A stretch of DNA of 35,450 nucleotides from a bacterium (GTDB lineage Bacteria > CG2-30-53-67). The stretch covers positions 1 through 35,450 of the forward strand of contig CAKKPE010000155.1 of the NCBI GenBank assembly GCA_919901565.1, read 5' to 3'. Below the pieces are notes generated by a model. It worked only from the letters and a program-made list of their open reading frames with translations, did not search any database and was not told the origin of the DNA. The stretch's first letter is position 1. Every line of letters starts with the position of its first letter. Made by a program: the position numbers and the translations under genes. Positions 7,402-15,506 of this stretch are shown in pieces.

Positions 7402-7866
7402 TCACCTCCCTATCTCCGCCGCGTTCTGTCCGCAATCGAATACTCCATTGCCGGACTTGACGGCTTCATGATAAGCTACCCGAACGATGCTTCCCTTTGG
7501 GGGGATGGCGGTCAGGCGTGCTGTGAAAAACGATTCTCTTGCCCCTCTTCGCCGGATGATTCCAGGGTAGTAGCGAGTGCTGACCTGATCAACAATCTCG
7601 TTTCCAGGGTTGATCACCGAGATATCAACGTGTCCCCAGTTACCAATAGAACTATCACGGCGTTTTACATTTCCAGAGACCTCAAGCACATCCACATCCT
7701 GATAAACATAGGCTTTGGAGATAGTGATCATTTTGGATTGGACCATCACAAGGGAAACCGCTCCCTGTTCTACCAGATTGATCCGGTTGGCTGTGCATCC
7801 CGAGAAGAGAATCCATAAGGCAACGAGAATGAAGATTGACAGAATGGTTTGTTTTATTCTTTGCAT
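7402..7866 (-). CDS. Putative lipoprotein of unknown function
   Basis: 154 residues. A lipoprotein signal peptide is plain: basic start MQRIKQ, hydrophobic core TILSIFILVALWIL, lipobox LFSGC with Cys at about residue 24. The mature part (VLEVSGNVKRRD, GHVDISVINPGNEIVD, the basic segment YYPGIIRRRGARE, then FFTARLTAIPPKGSIVRVAYH) reads like a single beta-sandwich domain with an extracytoplasmic role. I do not recognise a named family. ATG follows GGAGAGACGTT. It lies 61 bp downstream of the P-II gene on the same strand with no obvious terminator between, so it may be the last gene of the metal-efflux operon; if so it could be a periplasmic accessory. That link is inference from position only. 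Confidence 0.75.
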   Translation of the reverse strand: MQRIKQTILSIFILVALWILFSGCTANRINLVEQGAVSLVMVQSKMITISKAYVYQDVDVLEVSGNVKRRDSSIGNWGHVDISVINPGNEIVDQVSTRYYPGIIRRRGARESFFTARLTAIPPKGSIVRVAYHEAVKSGNGVFDCGQNAAEIGR

Positions 7867-7927: not shown

Positions 7928-8257
7928 TCAGCCTATCTCGCCCTTGCTGATCTTGATTGCCTTTTCAACATCGAAAACATAAATCTTGCCGTCCCCGCGA
8001 AGCCCCGTATAAGCCTTCTTTTCAATGATGGAGATGATTTCATCCAGCAGATCATCCCGGCAGAATATCTCAAGTTTTGTATAAGGAGCAAAGTCCATCA
8101 GGTCGTCGGTGACCGGGTGAGGGGAGTCCTTGTCTCCCCTCCGTCCGAATCCTTTGATGTCTACAATGCTGACGCCTCGAAGCCCCTCCACCTTCTGCAG
8201 GGCCGAGGTCACTTCAGTCAGTTTGTGTGGTTTGATATACGCCGTAATCTCTTTCAT
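7928..8257 (-). CDS. P-II family protein linked to metal efflux (PII-NG-like)
   Basis: 109 residues with the complete P-II fold: N-terminal MKEITAYIKPHKLTEV, the VDIKGFGRRGDK turn entering the T-loop, TKLEIFCRDDLLDEIISII, and the B/C-loop block TGLRGDGKIYVFDVEKAIKI that binds nucleotide in GlnB/GlnK. The T-loop (about 37-58, DKDSPHPVTDDLMDFAPY) lacks the uridylylated tyrosine at position 51, so control by GlnD-type modification is unlikely. P-II proteins of this kind are known to be encoded next to heavy-metal RND pumps (the PII-NG subgroup); their ligand and target are not settled. The gene follows czcA by 14 bp with a strong AAAGGAGG site, so it is certainly in the efflux operon. A regulatory interaction with the pump is inferred. 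Confidence 0.88.
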   Translation of the reverse strand: MKEITAYIKPHKLTEVTSALQKVEGLRGVSIVDIKGFGRRGDKDSPHPVTDDLMDFAPYTKLEIFCRDDLLDEIISIIEKKAYTGLRGDGKIYVFDVEKAIKISKGEIG

Positions 8258-8271
8258 TTGAACCTCCTTTG

Positions 8272-11200
8272 TTATTTCATGACCACTTCTTCTTCAGGTT
8301 TAATGGCAAACCACTTATATAATGCCGGTATGACCAGCAGGGTCAGGATGGTAGAGGTCACAAGCCCGCCGATGACGACAGTCGCCAGGGGACGTTGCAC
8401 TTCACTGCCGATCCCATGTGAAAAAAGGAGCGGAATCATACCGAGCGATGCAGCCATGGCGGTCATAAGAACCGGCCGAAGTCTCAAGCACGCCCCTTGG
8501 GCCGAAGCCTGATCGACCGAAATTCCGTCCCGCATAAGCTGATTCAGGTACGTTACGAGAACGATGCCGTTCAAGAGGGCGATCCCGAAAAGAGCAATGA
8601 AACCAACGGATGCAGGAACCGAAAGATTCTGCCCGGAAATCCACAAGGCCACGACACCACCGACCAGGGCCAGGGGAATATTCAGGAAGATCAGAAGAGA
8701 GTTCTTCAACGAGTTGAAGCTTGAGAAAAGGAGCAAAAAGATGATGAACAAGGTGATCGGGACGACAACCGCCAGGCGTTTATTGGCCTCCTGTTGCAGG
8801 CGGAACTGACCGCCCCAGGTGACAAGATAACCGGGCGGCAGATCTACCTTCCGATCAATAGCCGCCTGCGCTTCCCCGACGAAGGAACCGATGTCGCGGT
8901 CCATCACGTTGCATTGGACCGTGATAAATCGCTGGTTCTTTTCCCGAGTGATCTGGCGCGGGCCAATCACTTCTTTGATCGTCGCCAGTTGGGCCAGCGG
9001 AACCTTGGTGCCGTTTGGGGCATTGATAAGGATTTGGCCGATGCTTTCAGGCGTGCTCCGGTATTCCGGCGCATACCGGACCAGTATCTCAAAACGGCGG
9101 ATACCCTCGAAGATTTCGCCGGCCACCTCGCCGCCCACGGCAGCACGGATCACCTCTTGGACATCGGATACATTAATGCCGTACCGGGCAATAGCCTGAC
9201 GGTCTACCCGGACGAGAAGCTGCGGCATTCCTGAGACCTGGTCGACCTGCACGTCTGCTGCGCCGCGGACCCCTTCGATCACGGCGGCGACTTCATCGGC
9301 CTTCTGCTTCAGGATATCCAGATCATCCCCGAATAGCTTGATCGCCAACTCGGACCGAACGCCTTCCAGCAGCTCATCCACAGTCATGGCGATAGGCTGG
9401 GTGAAATTCGTAAGCACACCAGGGATCTCACCGATCTCGCTGCGTATGGTCTCTTCCAGTTCCTCCTGGGAAGAGACACGCCACTCTTCCTTAGGTTTAA
9501 GCAGGATATAGATTTCAGCGCTGTTAACGGGGTCGGTATGCGCTCCGACTTCCCCCCGACCGATCCGGGTCACCACACCCGTGATTTCCTGAACTTTCAT
9601 GAGTCGTTTCTCCGCACGCAAGGTGACGCGTGTGCTCTCCGTCAGGGAGATGGACGGCGCCATGGTGAGACGCAGGACCAAGGTCCCTTCCTGCAGGGTC
9701 GGAGTGAATTCCGAACCCAGGCGTGGGAAGACTAACATGCCCACAAGAATCAGGGAAACGGCCAATCCAACGGCCAGATGACGATGCCCCACAAAGTACC
9801 TGACCAGCGGCTCATAAGACCTCTTCAGCCAACGGACCACAGCAATTTCATGGTCGTGATCCTCTTTCCCGGTAGACTTGGGTCTTCGCATCAATAAATG
9901 GGACAAGACCGGCGCAAGGAAGAGAGCAAAGATCAGGGAACCCAGCATGGCCATGGCCACGGTGTAGGCCAGTGGCCGGAAGGTCTTGCCTTCCACCCCC
10001 TGCAGAGTGAAGAGGGGGAGGAAAACAATAATAATGATCGACACGGCAAACAAGATAGGACGGGCCACCTCGGCACAGGCACGGGCCACAATCTGGATGA
10101 GCGGTGTTTCCGGCTCGGATTCACGCAGCATCCGGTCCACATTCTCCACCATCACGATGGTTCCGTCCACCATCATGCCGATGGCGATAGCGATTCCCCC
10201 GAAGGACATGAGGTTGGCCGAAATTCCAAAGATTCGCATTCCCAGCATGGCAAAGAGCACGGAAAAGGGGATGGCCAGCGTGACCACCAGGCTCGGACGA
10301 AAGGCTCCCATAAAGATGAAGAGAACAAGTGCCACAAAGACGATTCCTTCGACGAGTGCGTCCGTTACGGTCGCCACGCATGCTTCAACAAGCGTCTTCT
10401 GTTCATAATAGGGGACGATCCGGACGCCCTTGGGAAGGATCTTGTTGATCTCTTCAAGCTTTTTTTCAACCGCTCCGATGACCGTGGAGGAGTTGCTCCC
10501 AAAGAGCTTCACCACCATGCCCGCGACGACTTCTTCGACTCCGTTTCGTGTTTGAACACCGCGGCGCACGGCCCCGCCGATCTGTATATCCGCCAGTTGT
10601 TTCAGAAAGACCGGTGTTCCGTCTTCGGATTTGATCACGATGTTCTCAAGATCGTCAATGGAACTCGCAAGGCCCACGGAACGAACGATAAACTCCTCCG
10701 CGTCCTTCTCTATGAATTGGGCGCCCACATTCAGGTTGTTCGCCCGAACCTTCTCGATCACATCAGGGAGGGTCACATCAAAGCGCAGCAGGGCGTCAGG
10801 ATTCACCACGAGATGAAACTGTTTCTCCCAACCCCCGATGCCGAGGACTTCGGTGACTCCCGGCACGGTCTGCAGGTGGAACTTAATCAGCCAGTCCTGA
10901 ATGACCCGAAGTTCCTCCAAAGACCGCTCACCTGTTTCGTCCTCCAGGTAATAAAAGAGCACCAGGCCCATGCCCGTGGAGATCGGCCCCATCATGGGCT
11001 CGCCGAATCCTTCGGGAATTTGTTCACGGGCCTCCTGTAGCCGTTCGTTCACAAGCTGGCGGGCAAAGTAGATATCCACCCCGTCTTCGAAGTAGATGTT
11101 CACAACGGACAGGCCGAAGTTGGAAACAGAGCGAATATTTTGAATGTCCGGCAGTCCATTCATGGCAACTTCGACCGGGTAGGTGACATATTTTTCGACC

Positions 11201-11379
11201 TCCTCCGGCGCCAGACCCTCGGTAGTGGTAAAGACCTGGACCAGATTGGGGGAGACGTCCGGGAAGGCATCCACGGGAAGGCCGCGGTAGCTGTAGAAAC
11301 CCGCCGCCATCACCAGGACCCCCAACACCAACACAAGAAGACGGCTCTTGAGGGTAAATTGAATAATCTTCTCTATCAT
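8272..11379 (-). CDS. czcA: Heavy-metal RND efflux pump, inner-membrane component (CzcA/CusA family)
   Basis: 1035 residues, the normal length for HME-RND permeases. These proton-driven trimers take metal ions from the periplasm or inner membrane and pass them to the adaptor and outer-membrane channel. Visible marks include GLPVDAFPDVSPNLVQVFTTTEGLAPEEVEKYVTYP split over the N-terminal region, ISFQV-type porter segments, TM4 GGIAIAIGMMVDGTIVMVEN, and C-terminal RLRPVLMTAMAASLGMIPL and GSEVQRPLATVVIGGL. The periplasmic part (FTQPIAMTVDELLEGVRSEL, then IKLFGDDLDIL) is CzcA-like, whereas TM4 lacks the CzcA DFG motif and resembles the CusA/other HME form. Methionines expected for Cu/Ag transport in the porter domain are mostly absent (ARYGI where CusA has ARYGM). 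The ion is therefore undecided, with divalent metals (Zn, Co, Ni, Cd) somewhat favoured. Confidence 0.95.
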   Translation of the reverse strand: MIEKIIQFTLKSRLLVLVLGVLVMAAGFYSYRGLPVDAFPDVSPNLVQVFTTTEGLAPEEVEKYVTYPVEVAMNGLPDIQNIRSVSNFGLSVVNIYFEDGVDIYFARQLVNERLQEAREQIPEGFGEPMMGPISTGMGLVLFYYLEDETGERSLEELRVIQDWLIKFHLQTVPGVTEVLGIGGWEKQFHLVVNPDALLRFDVTLPDVIEKVRANNLNVGAQFIEKDAEEFIVRSVGLASSIDDLENIVIKSEDGTPVFLKQLADIQIGGAVRRGVQTRNGVEEVVAGMVVKLFGSNSSTVIGAVEKKLEEINKILPKGVRIVPYYEQKTLVEACVATVTDALVEGIVFVALVLFIFMGAFRPSLVVTLAIPFSVLFAMLGMRIFGISANLMSFGGIAIAIGMMVDGTIVMVENVDRMLRESEPETPLIQIVARACAEVARPILFAVSIIIIVFLPLFTLQGVEGKTFRPLAYTVAMAMLGSLIFALFLAPVLSHLLMRRPKSTGKEDHDHEIAVVRWLKRSYEPLVRYFVGHRHLAVGLAVSLILVGMLVFPRLGSEFTPTLQEGTLVLRLTMAPSISLTESTRVTLRAEKRLMKVQEITGVVTRIGRGEVGAHTDPVNSAEIYILLKPKEEWRVSSQEELEETIRSEIGEIPGVLTNFTQPIAMTVDELLEGVRSELAIKLFGDDLDILKQKADEVAAVIEGVRGAADVQVDQVSGMPQLLVRVDRQAIARYGINVSDVQEVIRAAVGGEVAGEIFEGIRRFEILVRYAPEYRSTPESIGQILINAPNGTKVPLAQLATIKEVIGPRQITREKNQRFITVQCNVMDRDIGSFVGEAQAAIDRKVDLPPGYLVTWGGQFRLQQEANKRLAVVVPITLFIIFLLLFSSFNSLKNSLLIFLNIPLALVGGVVALWISGQNLSVPASVGFIALFGIALLNGIVLVTYLNQLMRDGISVDQASAQGACLRLRPVLMTAMAASLGMIPLLFSHGIGSEVQRPLATVVIGGLVTSTILTLLVIPALYKWFAIKPEEEVVMK

Positions 11380-11475
11380 GCTCTGTACTCCTTTTATTCC
11401 TGCCTGTTATCAAAACCAGAAGGATTCTTGTCTTATTAAGAAAGGGGCAATGGCTGCTGCTGAAAAGAGCGTCTC

Positions 11476-12717
11476 TTAATGCTCGTCCCCCTCACCAAAT
11501 GCCTCTTTCCCGATTTCCGCTTTCAGTGTGAAGGCCCCTTTGCTGACGTAACGGTCTCCTTTTTCAAGACCGGAGAGGATTTCAATATTGACATCATTGC
11601 TTCTTCCCACTGAAACAGCTCGAGGCTCAAATCCTTCCTCGGTACGGACAAAGATGGAGGACTGATCCTCCATGGTCTGGAGGGCCGTCTTTGGAACAGC
11701 AACAGCGGCCTCCATTTCACTCACAACCACCTGGGCATTGACGAAGAGGCCCGGTTTCCAGCGACCGTCTTCGTTGGGTAAGACCACTCGCGCCGGGGCC
11801 GTTCGAGTCTTCTCCCCCACCATGGGTCCCAGGTAAGAGATCGTCCCTTCGGCATCCGGTAATCCCTGACCTGCAGAGATGATCGCCTTCTGGCCGATCT
11901 GCACAAAGGGAAGATCCTTCTGATAGATACTCAGGTTTACCCAGACCGTGTCCAGATCAGCGATCACAAAAGCCTCGGTCTCTTCATGCAGGACCTCTCC
12001 GATAGTAATATGTTTTTCGATGACCGTCCCGTCAAAGGGGGCACGGATCTCATAATAGGTGAAGTCCACGTCCGGCTGACTCGGCAATTTTTTTACGAAG
12101 GACTCCGAAAAACCGAGGGCATGGAGCTTCTGTTCTGCGGAGCGGAGCTCAATCCGGACCTCCGCCAGCTTCTGTTTGGCCTCCAGATATTCCTGCTCAG
12201 AGGTGATCTTTTTGGTCCACAACTCTTTCTCCCGTCTGAAGTTGGCCAAAGCCAGATCTTCCCTTTCCTTTGCCGCCAAATAGGCAGACTTGGCGTCAGC
12301 TAGTTCACGGCTCTCCAGCACGGCCATCACCTCTCCGGTCTGAACCTTTTCACCGAGGGTCTTCTTGACCTCACGGACAATGCCCGGCACTCGGGGAACC
12401 ACGTGGCCCAGCCTGTCGGCGTTGACGGTCACTTCACCCGGCAGACTGACATGGACCTTGATGCGGCCGGGACCGGCAGTCCGGACTTCGATGCCGAGCT
12501 CCTTCATCTCATCTTCGGTGAGTCGGGCCACCTTCCTATCACCGTCTTCTTCATTGTGGTCCTGATCCGTTTTTTCAGCATGATCGTCGTGATCGCTCTG
12601 TTTCTGATTTACATGTGCCTGCTCCGGCGTCTTATCTGTGGGTTGAAACTGTTTATATATCACCGCGGCCAGAACAACTCCGACCAGTACGATGGCAATG
12701 GTAAAGATTCGCTTCAT
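11476..12717 (-). CDS. czcB: Heavy-metal efflux periplasmic adaptor (CzcB/CusB family)
   Basis: 413 residues from the chosen ATG. An N-terminal anchor (RIFTIAIVLVGVVLAAVIY) is followed by a His/Asp-rich segment (DHDDHAEKTDQDHNEEDGD) likely to bind metal ions, a barrel-sandwich/lipoyl half (GHVVPRVPGIVREVKKTLGEKVQTGEVMAVLES), a helical hairpin (about 140-210, AKSAYLAAKEREDLALANFRR and after), and the beta-barrel and membrane-proximal domains (YYEIRAPFDGTVIEKHI, then KPGLFVNAQVVVSE). It bridges CzcA and the outer-membrane channel. An in-frame ATG five codons earlier (12732) overlaps the czcC stop by ATGA, but GGGAG sits correctly only for the ATG at 12717, so that start is preferred. The gap to czcA is 96 bp. 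Confidence 0.93.
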   Translation of the reverse strand: MKRIFTIAIVLVGVVLAAVIYKQFQPTDKTPEQAHVNQKQSDHDDHAEKTDQDHNEEDGDRKVARLTEDEMKELGIEVRTAGPGRIKVHVSLPGEVTVNADRLGHVVPRVPGIVREVKKTLGEKVQTGEVMAVLESRELADAKSAYLAAKEREDLALANFRREKELWTKKITSEQEYLEAKQKLAEVRIELRSAEQKLHALGFSESFVKKLPSQPDVDFTYYEIRAPFDGTVIEKHITIGEVLHEETEAFVIADLDTVWVNLSIYQKDLPFVQIGQKAIISAGQGLPDAEGTISYLGPMVGEKTRTAPARVVLPNEDGRWKPGLFVNAQVVVSEMEAAVAVPKTALQTMEDQSSIFVRTEEGFEPRAVSVGRSNDVNIEILSGLEKGDRYVSKGAFTLKAEIGKEAFGEGDEH

Positions 12718-12728
12718 TACGTCTCCCT

Positions 12729-14096
12729 TCATTCTTGTGATATTTCTTTGAAAACGGCATCAAGCCCGACCCCGGTCAGCCGATTCACCTGGGCCTTCGA
12801 CTTGTGATAGGACGCCAGTGATTCGATATATCGGCCTCTGGCCTCAAAAAAGGTTCGTTGGGCGTCGAGGACATCCAGATAACCGAATTTGCCCTGGCGG
12901 TAACCTTCACTTGCGCCGTCAAAGGCGGTTTGGGCTCCGGGCAGTACATCTTGCTGCAGGGCTTTTGCCTCAGCGTAGGCAATGGAGAGTTCCTGATAGG
13001 CTTCAGCTAGAGCGTTCAGCACGATCAGTTCTGCAGCCCGTTGTTCTTCCACTGCCTTGGACTGGCGCTGCCGCGCCTCCCGCACGCCTCCCGAATTACG
13101 ATCGAAGAGAGGCAGGGGAATGGAGAGCCCCATAACAAAGGCGTTGTTGTCCGTCTCTTTAAACCGGCGGATTCCCCCGCTCAAGGTCAGGTCGGGGATT
13201 CTTTCGGCCTTCTCCAGCTTCACCGTTTCCTGTCGTTGTTCCATTTCAACGGACCAACGGGCGATATCCGGGTTTTTGGAAATCGTATCCTCCAACTGCG
13301 CTGCCGACAGGATGGGAGCAATTCTTTCCAGCTCTCCATCAACCCTTTCAAAGAGCGGCGTTCCACTCCCCCAGAGAGCGGCAAGTTTCTTACGTGATGC
13401 ATCAAGCCTGCGCCTCGCCCGTTCCAGGTCGATAAGACTTGTGGAATAGGAGACCCCGGCCCTCGTCTCTTCCAATGGAGAGACTTTCCCGGCCTTGACC
13501 CGTTCCGAAATGGTGTTGAGGACCTGTTCGGAAAGGCCGGCCAATTCATCCATCAGAGAGAATCGTTCCTGGGCGGCCAGAACATCCACAAAAGCCTGGG
13601 TCGTCTCACTCAAGACATCGGCTCGTTTGGCCTCGTAATCCCATCCGGCCAGGTCCCGCTCTAAAGAGGCAACTTTTCTTCTCTTGGGGCGTTTACCCGC
13701 CAACTCGATCAACTGGCTGAGCTGGACCGTGGTCTCTGAAGAGTCAAAGTCCCGGAGCTCTTTTTCCCCTCCGAAGTTTTCCACTTCAACCCCGATCTCC
13801 GGATTGGGGAAAAGCCCTGACTGCAGTGCCCTGGCATCCTGTGCACGAACTTCCAGGGAGAATGCCTTGAGTTCAGGGTTTCTCAAAATAGCCAGAGAGA
13901 CGGCTTGTTCGAGAGTCACGATACCTGTGGGCTCTTCAGCCTCGGACTCCGCTCTTTCGGAAGAGTATTCCATAGTGTGCCCCTCTTCTGCAGAGGCAAA
14001 CCCGACCCCGGCCGTTACTGAAAGCGTGCCAGAGGAGACAGGAAATTCAAGTAATGCAAGAACTGCAATATACAACAAGAAGGATTTTACATACAC
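12729..14096 (-). CDS. czcC: Heavy-metal efflux outer-membrane channel (CzcC, TolC superfamily)
   Basis: 455 residues from the chosen start. A signal peptide (KSFLLYIAVLALLEFPVSSG) leads to two outer-membrane-factor repeats, with the typical opening VTLEQAVSLAILRNPELKAFSLEV, SGLFPNPEIGVEVENFGG, the second-repeat marker IPDLTLSGGIRRFKE...FVMGLSIPLPLFDRNSGGVREA, and the closing YRQGKFGYLDVLDAQRTFFEARGRYIESLASYHKSKAQVNRLTG region. It forms the exit duct for the RND pump. An ATG at 14150 also lies in frame, but GGAGG is placed seven bases before the GTG at 14096, whose product begins directly with the signal peptide, so GTG is chosen. Translation probably couples to czcB. Confidence 0.93.
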   Translation of the reverse strand: MYVKSFLLYIAVLALLEFPVSSGTLSVTAGVGFASAEEGHTMEYSSERAESEAEEPTGIVTLEQAVSLAILRNPELKAFSLEVRAQDARALQSGLFPNPEIGVEVENFGGEKELRDFDSSETTVQLSQLIELAGKRPKRRKVASLERDLAGWDYEAKRADVLSETTQAFVDVLAAQERFSLMDELAGLSEQVLNTISERVKAGKVSPLEETRAGVSYSTSLIDLERARRRLDASRKKLAALWGSGTPLFERVDGELERIAPILSAAQLEDTISKNPDIARWSVEMEQRQETVKLEKAERIPDLTLSGGIRRFKETDNNAFVMGLSIPLPLFDRNSGGVREARQRQSKAVEEQRAAELIVLNALAEAYQELSIAYAEAKALQQDVLPGAQTAFDGASEGYRQGKFGYLDVLDAQRTFFEARGRYIESLASYHKSKAQVNRLTGVGLDAVFKEISQE

Positions 14097-14183
14097 GGGA
14101 AAACCTCCATGATAGTCGTGTTTTAATTTTATTTCAAAAACAATGGGCAAAAAAAGTGCGATCTGAGGATTAGATTGAAGGGA

Positions 14184-14594
14184 TCAAACCAGGAGGACAA
14201 TCGTCTGCAGAGACGTTAACGTTGAAGTCAGCAAAGGCGGCCGTTGCGGGAAACGGCCGCCGGTCAGGATTTCCCCTTGAAAAACCCATGGGGCAGAGGA
14301 TGCCCTGTCAATCATATTCTTAATGACATGGGAATACTGGATGGATGAGATGTTCGGGTCTTTGGAGCTTGTTGAAATAGGGATATCCAGACAGACGTTA
14401 CAGGTTCTTGAAGTGTCAAGAACACAACTTGAAGGGAGGGATTCGGAACAGTGATTATTCAGTTCAATGCCGACATGGTCGTTTTCACTGATGCAGACAA
14501 CCATGCTGGACAAGATCCCCTGGCCTATAAGGCTATAAATCAAAAAAGGAATCAAAAAGATATAAAGAGTTCTGTTCTTAAATGTTTCGGGCAT
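14184..14594 (-). CDS. Small exported Cys/His protein heading the metal-efflux operon
   Basis: 136 residues, no named function recognised. An N-terminal hydrophobic helix (LYIFLIPFLIYSLIGQGILSSMVV, about 10-33) acts as a signal or anchor. It is followed by a cluster of possible metal ligands: C34, D39, H40, H48, C49, C57, C65 and C68, with the patterns VCISENDHVGIE and CNVCLDIPIS. I recall uncharacterised proteins with the same signal-CxxxDxHV...CxxCxDIP layout encoded upstream of czcCBA-type operons, so it is probably a conserved accessory and not chance coding. A periplasmic metal-binding or sensing role is inferred. The C-terminal third is Pro/Thr/Leu-rich without motifs. ATG at 14594 has only a weak ribosome site. 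It precedes czcC by 87 bp and is the first gene of the operon. Confidence 0.65.
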   Translation of the reverse strand: MPETFKNRTLYIFLIPFLIYSLIGQGILSSMVVCISENDHVGIELNNHCSESLPSSCVLDTSRTCNVCLDIPISTSSKDPNISSIQYSHVIKNMIDRASSAPWVFQGEILTGGRFPQRPPLLTSTLTSLQTIVLLV

Positions 14595-14620
14595 GACCGT
14601 TATCTTTCTAAAACAATAGT

Positions 14621-14637
14621 GGCACCTTAAGGTGTCC
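14621..14637. promoter_or_regulatory. Palindrome upstream of the metal-efflux operon (candidate operator)
   Basis: GGCACCTTAAGGTGTCC contains a perfect 12-bp palindrome CACCTTAAGGTG (14623-14634). It lies 29 bases upstream of the first ATG of the efflux operon and between it and divergent yjbQ. A TTGCAT/TACCAT pair with 17-bp spacing on the minus strand lies just upstream (about 14654-14682). The position suits a metal-responsive repressor or activator, but no regulator gene is in the window. Confidence 0.45.
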
Positions 14638-14702
14638 TAATTTTATTCAGGATGGATGGTAACATAGTTGCGGACTTCATGCAAGCTCAAAGAATGTTTT
14701 TA

Positions 14703-14716
14703 AGAACAGGTGTTCT
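14703..14716. promoter_or_regulatory. Perfect inverted repeat AGAACA-GG-TGTTCT upstream of yjbQ
   Basis: Six-base arms separated by GG, about 77 bases before the proposed yjbQ start. It could be a regulator binding site for yjbQ or the divergent efflux operon. No -35/-10 pair of good quality overlaps it. Confidence 0.3.
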
Positions 14717-14792
14717 GAAGAGAAGAGCTTTCAATGTTGTCACGTCTCATGGGATGTGTTATGATTCAGGCACTCAAGAAGGACAAGACAGA

Positions 14793-15191
14793 GTGTATGA
14801 AATCCTGACGATTCAGACCAAGAACCGGGTCGAAATGGTTGACATTACCCCGATGATTCAAAAGGTTTTAGACAAGTCGGGCGTAAAAGATGGTCTATGC
14901 GTCGTCTATGTCCCTCATACCACGGCTGCAGTAACCATCAATGAAAATGCTGATCCTGATGTGCAGCGGGATATCCTGCAGCATTTATCATCCCTGATCC
15001 CGGTGTCCGGAGAATACAGACACATGGAAGGAAACGCCGATGCACACATCAAGGCCAGCCTTGTCGGATCCTCTGAAACGGTCATTGTAGAGAAAGGAAG
15101 TTTGGTTTTAGGAACTTGGCAGTCAGTTTTCTTCTGTGAATTCGATGGTCCAAGGACCCGGAAATGCCATGTCAAGATCATTGAGGGATGA
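14793..15191 (+). CDS. yjbQ: YjbQ/UPF0047 family protein
   Basis: 132 residues from the preferred GTG at 14793, which matches the family's usual 130-140. The reading frame extends back to an ATG at 14652, but that extra 47-residue stretch has no family counterpart, and AAGGA lies nine bases before GTG. Conserved blocks are VDITPMIQKVLDKSG near the start, the active-site-like CVVYVPHTTAAVTINENADPDV, HIKASLVGSSETVIVEKGSLVLGTWQSVFFCEFDGPR, and the end motif RKCHVKI. Members form trimers; the E. coli protein has weak thiamin-phosphate synthase activity, but the physiological role is unsettled. It is divergent from the efflux operon and convergent with the ferredoxin gene, separated by a strong hairpin. 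Confidence 0.9.
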   Translation: MYEILTIQTKNRVEMVDITPMIQKVLDKSGVKDGLCVVYVPHTTAAVTINENADPDVQRDILQHLSSLIPVSGEYRHMEGNADAHIKASLVGSSETVIVEKGSLVLGTWQSVFFCEFDGPRTRKCHVKIIEG

Positions 15192-15219
15192 ATCCCCCCC
15201 CGGGGATACCGGGGGGGAT
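15192..15219. terminator. GC-rich hairpin between convergent yjbQ and ferredoxin genes
   Basis: Arms ATCCCCCCC(C)GG and CCGGGGGGGAT enclose the loop GGATA; the stem has at least 11 pairs with one bulged C. It sits immediately after the yjbQ stop and 18 bases before the ferredoxin stop. There is no clear T-run on either side, so it may act as a roadblock or 3'-end stabiliser for both transcripts. Confidence 0.55.
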
Positions 15220-15236
15220 CAGACAGATTAGTCAGG

Positions 15237-15404
15237 TTATTCAGTAGCTACTGCATCTGTGGGGCAGACTTCAGCACAGTTGCCGCAATCCGAACATTTA
15301 GCTGGGTCGATCACATAGAGATCGCCTTCAGAAATAGCCTCTTCAGGGCATTCTGCAAGACAGGTCCCGCATGCGACACATTCTTCAGTAATACGATGAG
15401 CCAT
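15237..15404 (-). CDS. Small 2[4Fe-4S] ferredoxin
   Basis: 55 residues from the ATG at 15404, preceded by GGAGGG; an upstream in-frame ATG at 15422 has no such site. Two clostridial-type motifs are complete: CVACGTCLAECPEEAI and CSDCGNCAEVCPTDAV. The spacing CxxCxxCxxxCP in both halves means two low-potential [4Fe-4S] clusters. It is a cytosolic electron carrier for oxidoreductases; the partner cannot be told from context. It is encoded next to the Nfu cluster-carrier gene on the same strand (102 bp apart), which suits a shared link to iron-sulfur metabolism, although whether they are co-transcribed is unclear. Confidence 0.95.
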   Translation of the reverse strand: MAHRITEECVACGTCLAECPEEAISEGDLYVIDPAKCSDCGNCAEVCPTDAVATE

Positions 15405-15506
15405 TTTATTCCCTCCTTCCATTATTATATGCTGTAAATGAGATTTTCCCGGTGATTCCCAAACGGTTTCTTGATGCGCCTTAGGAATACCGGAAGGTGT
15501 GATCCC

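Follow-up and report, generated by a model that had tools for sequence, protein, structure and literature searches.

A small exported Cys/His protein at the head of heavy-metal RND efflux operons is a candidate nascent-chain metal sensor

The window analyzed here, a whole stretch of 35,450 nucleotides of bacterial DNA, contains a run of minus-strand genes headed by a small gene, referred to here as the leader gene (14184..14594; ATG at 14594, TGA at 14186-14184), which encodes a 136-residue Cys/His protein predicted to be exported. This open reading frame is exactly the one described in an earlier sequence-only reading of the DNA, and its extent is supported by family alignments. Downstream of it on the same strand lie a czcC-like outer-membrane factor (12729..14096; OEP PF02321, 3e-50), a czcB-like periplasmic adaptor (11476..12732; HlyD_D23 PF16576, 5e-47; TIGR00999, 4e-67), a czcA-like heavy-metal RND pump (8272..11379; CusA/CzcA TIGR00914, 1141 bits against a cut-off of 701) and, directly after czcA, a PII-like protein in a PII-NG type context (7928..8257; PF00543, 6e-19). 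A CusA/CzcA-family pump together with an adaptor and an outer-membrane factor (OMF) identifies the genes downstream of the leader as an HME-RND efflux operon. Since the UPF0047 neighbor on the other side is divergent, the run begins with the leader, in agreement with the earlier proposal.

The leader and czcC-like genes are separated by a pyrimidine-rich intergenic region of 87 nt (14097..14183, minus strand); across 42 loci, the median distance from leader to next gene is 130 nt. For the czcC-like gene, the most likely start is the GTG at 14096, which follows a Shine-Dalgarno sequence (SD), GGAGG (14104..14108, minus strand; predicted probability of being paired 0.92), at a distance of 7 nt, and we preferred this start over a longer TTG open reading frame. 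A sigma70-like site, TTGAAA-17-TATCAT, lies between the two genes (14109-14137, minus strand); about 1.5 such sites are expected by chance, and it may be a chance occurrence or an internal promoter. At the other end of the operon, the position of the PII gene after czcA is syntenic in many related loci and resembles the PII-NG-czcABC arrangement of Geobacter sulfurreducens (PMC7726332). Two genes after czcA lies a small lipoprotein-like open reading frame (7402-7866, minus strand) that belongs to no Pfam family and has relatives in the same relative place at L037/L100 (47%), L079 (31%) and the Defluviicoccus locus L116 (29%); it may be a further accessory, also unnamed, of pumps of this type. 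The source genome contains two more CzcA paralogues, at G000:C80:604-3219 and G000:C130:8527-10920 (49% and 36% identity), and one leader gene was found in it.

The N-terminal 30 residues of the leader protein (14505..14594, minus strand) form a predicted hydrophobic export signal, with a maximum 12-residue Kyte-Doolittle mean of 2.61 in the segment preceding C34. Across the family the N-terminal hydropathy is similarly high (mean 2.49), and the hydrophobic part stops just before C34, which suggests that this first ligand would sit near the mature N-terminus after signal cleavage. Because the segment is strongly hydrophobic and no lipobox precedes C34, a Sec signal peptide is its natural reading. 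Lipoprotein anchoring was rejected, there being no small residue ahead of C34. Of the earlier description of the protein as "secreted or anchored", the predicted signal peptide upholds the first half, while anchoring finds no support beyond an ordinary signal peptide. The AlphaFold2 model contains a helix at residues 5-24 and no confident fold (pLDDT 47), and it is uninformative given its shallow alignment of 11 sequences.

We found that the leader protein and its family members had no sequence match in Pfam, NCBIfam or PDB, and that positions 13000-15500 of the source contig had no match in Rfam. A literature search found no experimental work on the family. Within the source phylum, genome searches identified relatives in 3 of 8 genomes; further relatives came from 39 of 85 Poribacteria genomes and from 28 of 386 genomes of a broad sample, one hit among the latter being later discounted as spurious; Sumerlaeota and Verrucomicrobiales (Verrucomicrobiota) contigs also carry leader relatives. 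A profile hit at L072/L097, a 74-aa frame containing a stop, was discounted as spurious. A divergent member, annotated as a "hypothetical protein", was reached through a CzcA search on a plasmid of the alphaproteobacterium Defluviicoccus vanus, and a tblastn search of plasmids with a Poribacteria member gave no match. Since Poribacteria are over-represented among the members, statistics were also computed without them.

The ligand block spans residues 34-72 (14379..14495, minus strand) and reads C34 x5 H40 x3 E44 x4 C49 ... C65 xx C68 x D70 I P, within a family consensus of VLCxGxDGHVxxE...C...CGxCxDIP. Comparison of 62 members shows C34 (62/62), C49 (60/62), C68 (61/61) and D70 (61/61) to be invariant or nearly so, together with a Glu near position 44 (61/62), while a His near position 40 occurs in 52 of 62 members. 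C65, and with it the CxxC motif formed with C68, is present in 50 of 61 members and absent from the two nearest relatives of the source protein. The seven potential ligands listed in the sequence-only reading (C34, H40, H48, C49, C57, C65 and C68) are all present, and only part of the set is conserved: H48 and C57 occur in the source sequence alone and were rejected as functional ligands.

The association with RND pumps is nearly uniform. Leader profiles, used on their own, retrieved 42 loci after exclusion of one spurious hit; in 41 of them the next gene on the same strand encodes an RND outer-membrane factor or adaptor, and 24 of 26 held-out loci have an OMF match. The earlier statement that similar unnamed proteins lie beside other czcCBA operons was correct, and the idea of a metal-related accessory family survived the check set for it, namely whether the ligands would prove unconserved or the homologues lie away from RND pumps. 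The single exception (L092) has two leader copies in a metal island (9544-12987) with no RND genes; ArsR regulators and a heavy-metal P-type ATPase are nearby, and one copy lies upstream of a DUF3347 protein. The pumps beside leaders share about 38-89% identity with the source CzcA. In the source phylum, three genomes have the orthologous pump (85-100% identity), and they are the very three that bear the leader, so that the protein can be called "fixed", as had been claimed, for this pump type in this phylum, and not for RND operons at large. In some leader loci an ArsR-type regulator lies just upstream. In some operons, other small exported His- or Cys-rich open reading frames, non-homologous to the leader, occupy its place upstream of CzcC-like genes; two of them have CutF-like endings, SRAPP (L141:802-1329, plus strand) and RAPRPP (L145:3-281, reverse-complement coordinates). 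These observations suggest that leaders of different origin are exchanged or interchangeable at this place in the operon.

Between the ligand block and the C-terminus the family keeps length and not sequence. In the source protein this spacer covers residues 73-128 (14211..14378, minus strand), and the distance from C68 to the C-terminus is 68 residues. Among 30 non-Poribacteria members from several phyla, this distance is 68.4 +/- 2.5 residues (middle half 67-70), while linker identity between members is 8.1%, compared to 7.1% for shuffled sequences. The last eight residues share 41% pairwise identity, against about 8% in the linker, and follow the pattern [LI][RQ][ST]xxLL[IV]-stop; in the source protein they read LQTIVLLV (14187..14210, minus strand), a candidate arrest or termination-pausing element. 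Spacing anchors were taken from a profile of the N-terminal block only, with which new genomes were then searched as a held-out set. The 25 new members gave a distance from C68 to the end of 67.5 +/- 2.95 residues (24 within 63-71, one at 57) and mostly share the type of ending at the stop, with the held-out phylum often having LRI, not LLI. The stretch from C34 to C68 ranges from 34 to 60 in the 30 non-Poribacteria members and is about as constant as the linker in the held-out set (39-48); for this reason our argument relies on the combination of constant length and random sequence, not on a contrast with the loop.

The 3' end of the leader gene also shows codon bias. Its final codons follow the pattern CTYCTNATY-stop-(T)CC: at the last three positions Leu is encoded by CTN in 111 of 114 cases, compared to 436 of 584 in the preceding part (p 7e-10; p 0.0016 for non-Poribacteria), and Ile codons in the tail avoid ATA. 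The resulting CUCCU is complementary to the Shine-Dalgarno sequence. By partition-function folding, the SD of the gene after the leader has a predicted probability of being paired of 0.91 (38 loci) versus 0.60 for 77 other SDs at the same loci (p 8e-13), and of pairing with the leader 3' end of 0.49 versus 0.07 (p 2e-10), by rank tests that ignore relatedness among loci, with start codons picked by one rule for tests and controls alike. We added dinucleotide shuffles because the other SDs are unmatched in composition, and the effect against shuffles is smaller (0.91 versus 0.80, p 4e-6; held-out loci 0.80 versus 0.72, p 0.019). At the source locus, the minimum free energy structure pairs CCUCC within codons 133-135 (14192..14196, minus strand) with GGAGG (14108-14104) at a probability of about 0.44, and sequestration is not above dinucleotide shuffles (0.86 versus 0.86); pyrimidine-rich composition therefore explains much of the sequestration at this locus and part of it across the family. 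With synonymous recoding, SD pairing fell modestly, from 0.913 to 0.864; pairing with the 3' end of the leader fell as well, but not significantly (p 0.077). The CUCCU element is not universal, given the LRI tails of the held-out phylum, and the conserved Ser/Thr six residues from the end is encoded by both ACN and TCN codons. Judged from these two features, the C-terminal protein motif is not just a by-product of the RNA.

This architecture resembles that of proven metal-sensing leaders. CutF, of the cutFOG operon of Rhodobacter capsulatus, is exported, and its binding of Cu delays translation, which opens a stem-loop over the SD of the next gene (mBio 2023, PMC9973294). Like CutF, the leader family consists of small Cys proteins, predicted to be exported, encoded by the first gene of a metal operon, with a C-terminal motif and a short intergenic region, and CutF-like genes, too, often lie upstream of OEP/RND genes. 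In CutF this region shields the ribosome-binding site of the next gene; for the leader such shielding is predicted across the family, but at the source locus it is no higher than in shuffles. CutF has a CxxxC motif, a proline-rich C-terminus and 45 residues between the metal motif and the C-terminal motif, whereas the motif of the leader family is C-x5-H-x3-E...C...CxxCxD, with no PP at the terminus and a distance of about 68 residues to the stop. In CruR of Bordetella pertussis, a DUF2946 protein, the conserved CxxC-to-RAPP spacing varies by no more than one or two residues, and lengthening the spacer by five strongly reduces the copper response (mBio 2022, PMC9426467). CruR and the leader family share an upstream open reading frame, a CxxC, a spacer of conserved length and a C-terminal motif, which in CruR is the arrest motif. 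CruR heads copper operons and is characterized by a RAPP arrest motif, 45-residue spacing, Rho-dependent termination and action independent of its signal peptide; the leader family differs in its non-proline, stop-anchored motif and longer spacer. The CxxC/CxxxC metal motif of the CutF-CruR group is present in the leader as C65-x2-C68, while the 45-residue spacing is absent (about 60 residues from C68 to the start of the last-8 motif, 68 to the C-terminus). Neither the source protein nor any of 18 members matched DUF2946 (Pfam PF11162) at E<=10. By profile, terminal motif and spacing, the leader protein is not a member of the DUF2946/CutF/CruR family, and the likeness is one of architecture.

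Small exported upstream open reading frames with conserved C-termini also include SecM, ApdA, ApdP, NSP-stop, NAP-stop and DGMK-stop, and some Sec/YidC arrest peptides act at the stop codon (Nat Commun 2024, PMC10987492). In the portions of that paper considered here these peptides regulate sec/yidC genes and are not described as metal sensors, and the leader C-terminal sequence has no counterpart among the arrest motifs shown there. For finding arrest peptides among upstream open reading frames of sec/yidC genes, four criteria have been published (PMC10987492): small size and uncharacterized status, an export signal, a conserved C-terminus and a spacer over 30 residues. All four describe the leader family as well. 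We found no RAPP-like or other known arrest motif in the family; PP occurs in the last 15 residues of 3 of 62 members and is absent from the source protein. The new observations are the stretch of fixed length and random sequence from the last Cys to the stop-anchored motif, the codon bias of the tail and the predicted sequestration of the downstream ribosome-binding site; both length and sequestration were seen again in held-out members.

Fixed-length random spacing to a stop-anchored motif, together with predicted sequestration of the downstream ribosome-binding site, suggests that the leader is read during its translation. We hypothesize that the leader protein is an exported nascent-chain metal sensor that controls translation of the pump genes by a logic like that of CutF and CruR, which we consider the probable function. 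At rest, the ribosome-binding site of czcC would be base-paired, partly with the leader's own 3' end, and czcC would be poorly translated. The leader protein, bearing its hydrophobic signal, would be exported during synthesis, and with the ribosome at the last codons or stop, the C34/H40/C49/C65/C68 site would lie about 68 residues from the peptidyl-transferase center. Given that nascent chains enter the SecYEG channel about 45 residues from this center, a 68-residue tether would place the metal site clear of the translocon, just outside it. Metal bound at the site may alter the tension on the emerging polypeptide, or the way it folds, and with it how long the ribosome lingers at the C-terminal motif. 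While paused at the end of the leader, the ribosome would cover the anti-Shine-Dalgarno codons and free czcC for translation, and periplasmic metal would thereby tune pump synthesis. Stalling may act in either direction, turning expression on with metal as for CutF or off as for CruR, and the class of the pump suggests that the metal is a divalent cation or copper. Of the roles offered by the sequence-only reading, "scavenger, sensor or gate", the fixed spacing, stop-anchored motif and SD sequestration favor the sensor, although one that is probably not a finished periplasmic protein. Points against a leader model are that the motif is no known arrest motif, the intergenic sigma70-like site, and the ArsR-type regulators upstream in some loci. 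The lack of excess sequestration over shuffles at the source locus, the modest effect of recoding, the LRI tails and the near-constant C34-C68 stretch of the held-out set also count against it.

The main rival is a pump modulator: the finished protein would remain in the periplasm, bind metal and adjust how actively the assembled CzcCBA pump works. The pattern for this is CzcI of Cupriavidus metallidurans (NCBIfam NF045614), reported to quench the activity of CzcCBA towards zinc and cobalt (PMC10127602). CzcI and the leader are both small exported Cys/His proteins encoded immediately upstream of czcC (czcI-czcC-czcB-czcA), with a motif of the C...H...CGxC type, and the conserved C-terminal motif could have the adaptor or pump as its partner. 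Nevertheless, homology to CzcI was rejected (hhalign probability 0.9%, no match to the NCBIfam CzcI models), and the C-terminus of CzcI is without the [LI][RQ][ST]xxLLI motif. A soluble effector also leaves the fixed-length random linker, the codon bias of the tail and sequestration of the czcC site unexplained, and the partner pumps diverge widely while the leader shows no sign of a conserved docking surface beyond its two motifs. We consider such a modulator unlikely.

Two further explanations seem to us considerably less probable than a modulator of this kind. Translation of the leader could simply open the czcC site while the nascent chain senses no metal, in which case the protein would have a separate role or its ligands would be vestigial; the predicted sequestration of the SD, including its pairing with the leader 3' end, and the short intergenic distance fit such coupling, but near-invariant ligands at a constant distance from the stop are unexplained by it, and we hold it to be improbable. 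Marginally less probable still is a periplasmic chaperone or scavenger that hands metal to CzcB or CzcA in a CusF-like role. Conserved Cys/His/Glu ligands, an export signal and a place in an RND pump operon are what such a protein would have, yet no folded domain is predicted (from a shallow alignment) and no relative has a known structure, the gene always lies beside the OMF or adaptor heading the pump genes and is never interspersed among them, and the fixed spacing to a stop-anchored tail is unaccounted for.

Heavy-metal RND operons are usually viewed as three-part pumps under transcriptional control. From the leader family it would seem that, in many phyla beyond the well-studied Proteobacteria, pump synthesis is additionally controlled at translation, by a half-made reader of periplasmic metal. 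We tentatively propose, with somewhat less than even confidence, that it represents a novel group of metal-sensing arrest leaders with no sequence relationship to DUF2946, in which a non-proline pause at the leader's own stop, a 68-residue tether reaching past the translocon and an anti-Shine-Dalgarno element in or beside the last codons control heavy-metal RND pumps in many phyla. If true, the CutF/CruR principle would have a second, unrelated lineage, and the C-terminal motif would be a candidate proline-free arrest motif working at the stop codon. The tether of fixed length and random sequence makes a sharp prediction and provides a search signature for other ligand-sensing leaders, and a class of "hypothetical proteins" heading these pump operons gains a name.
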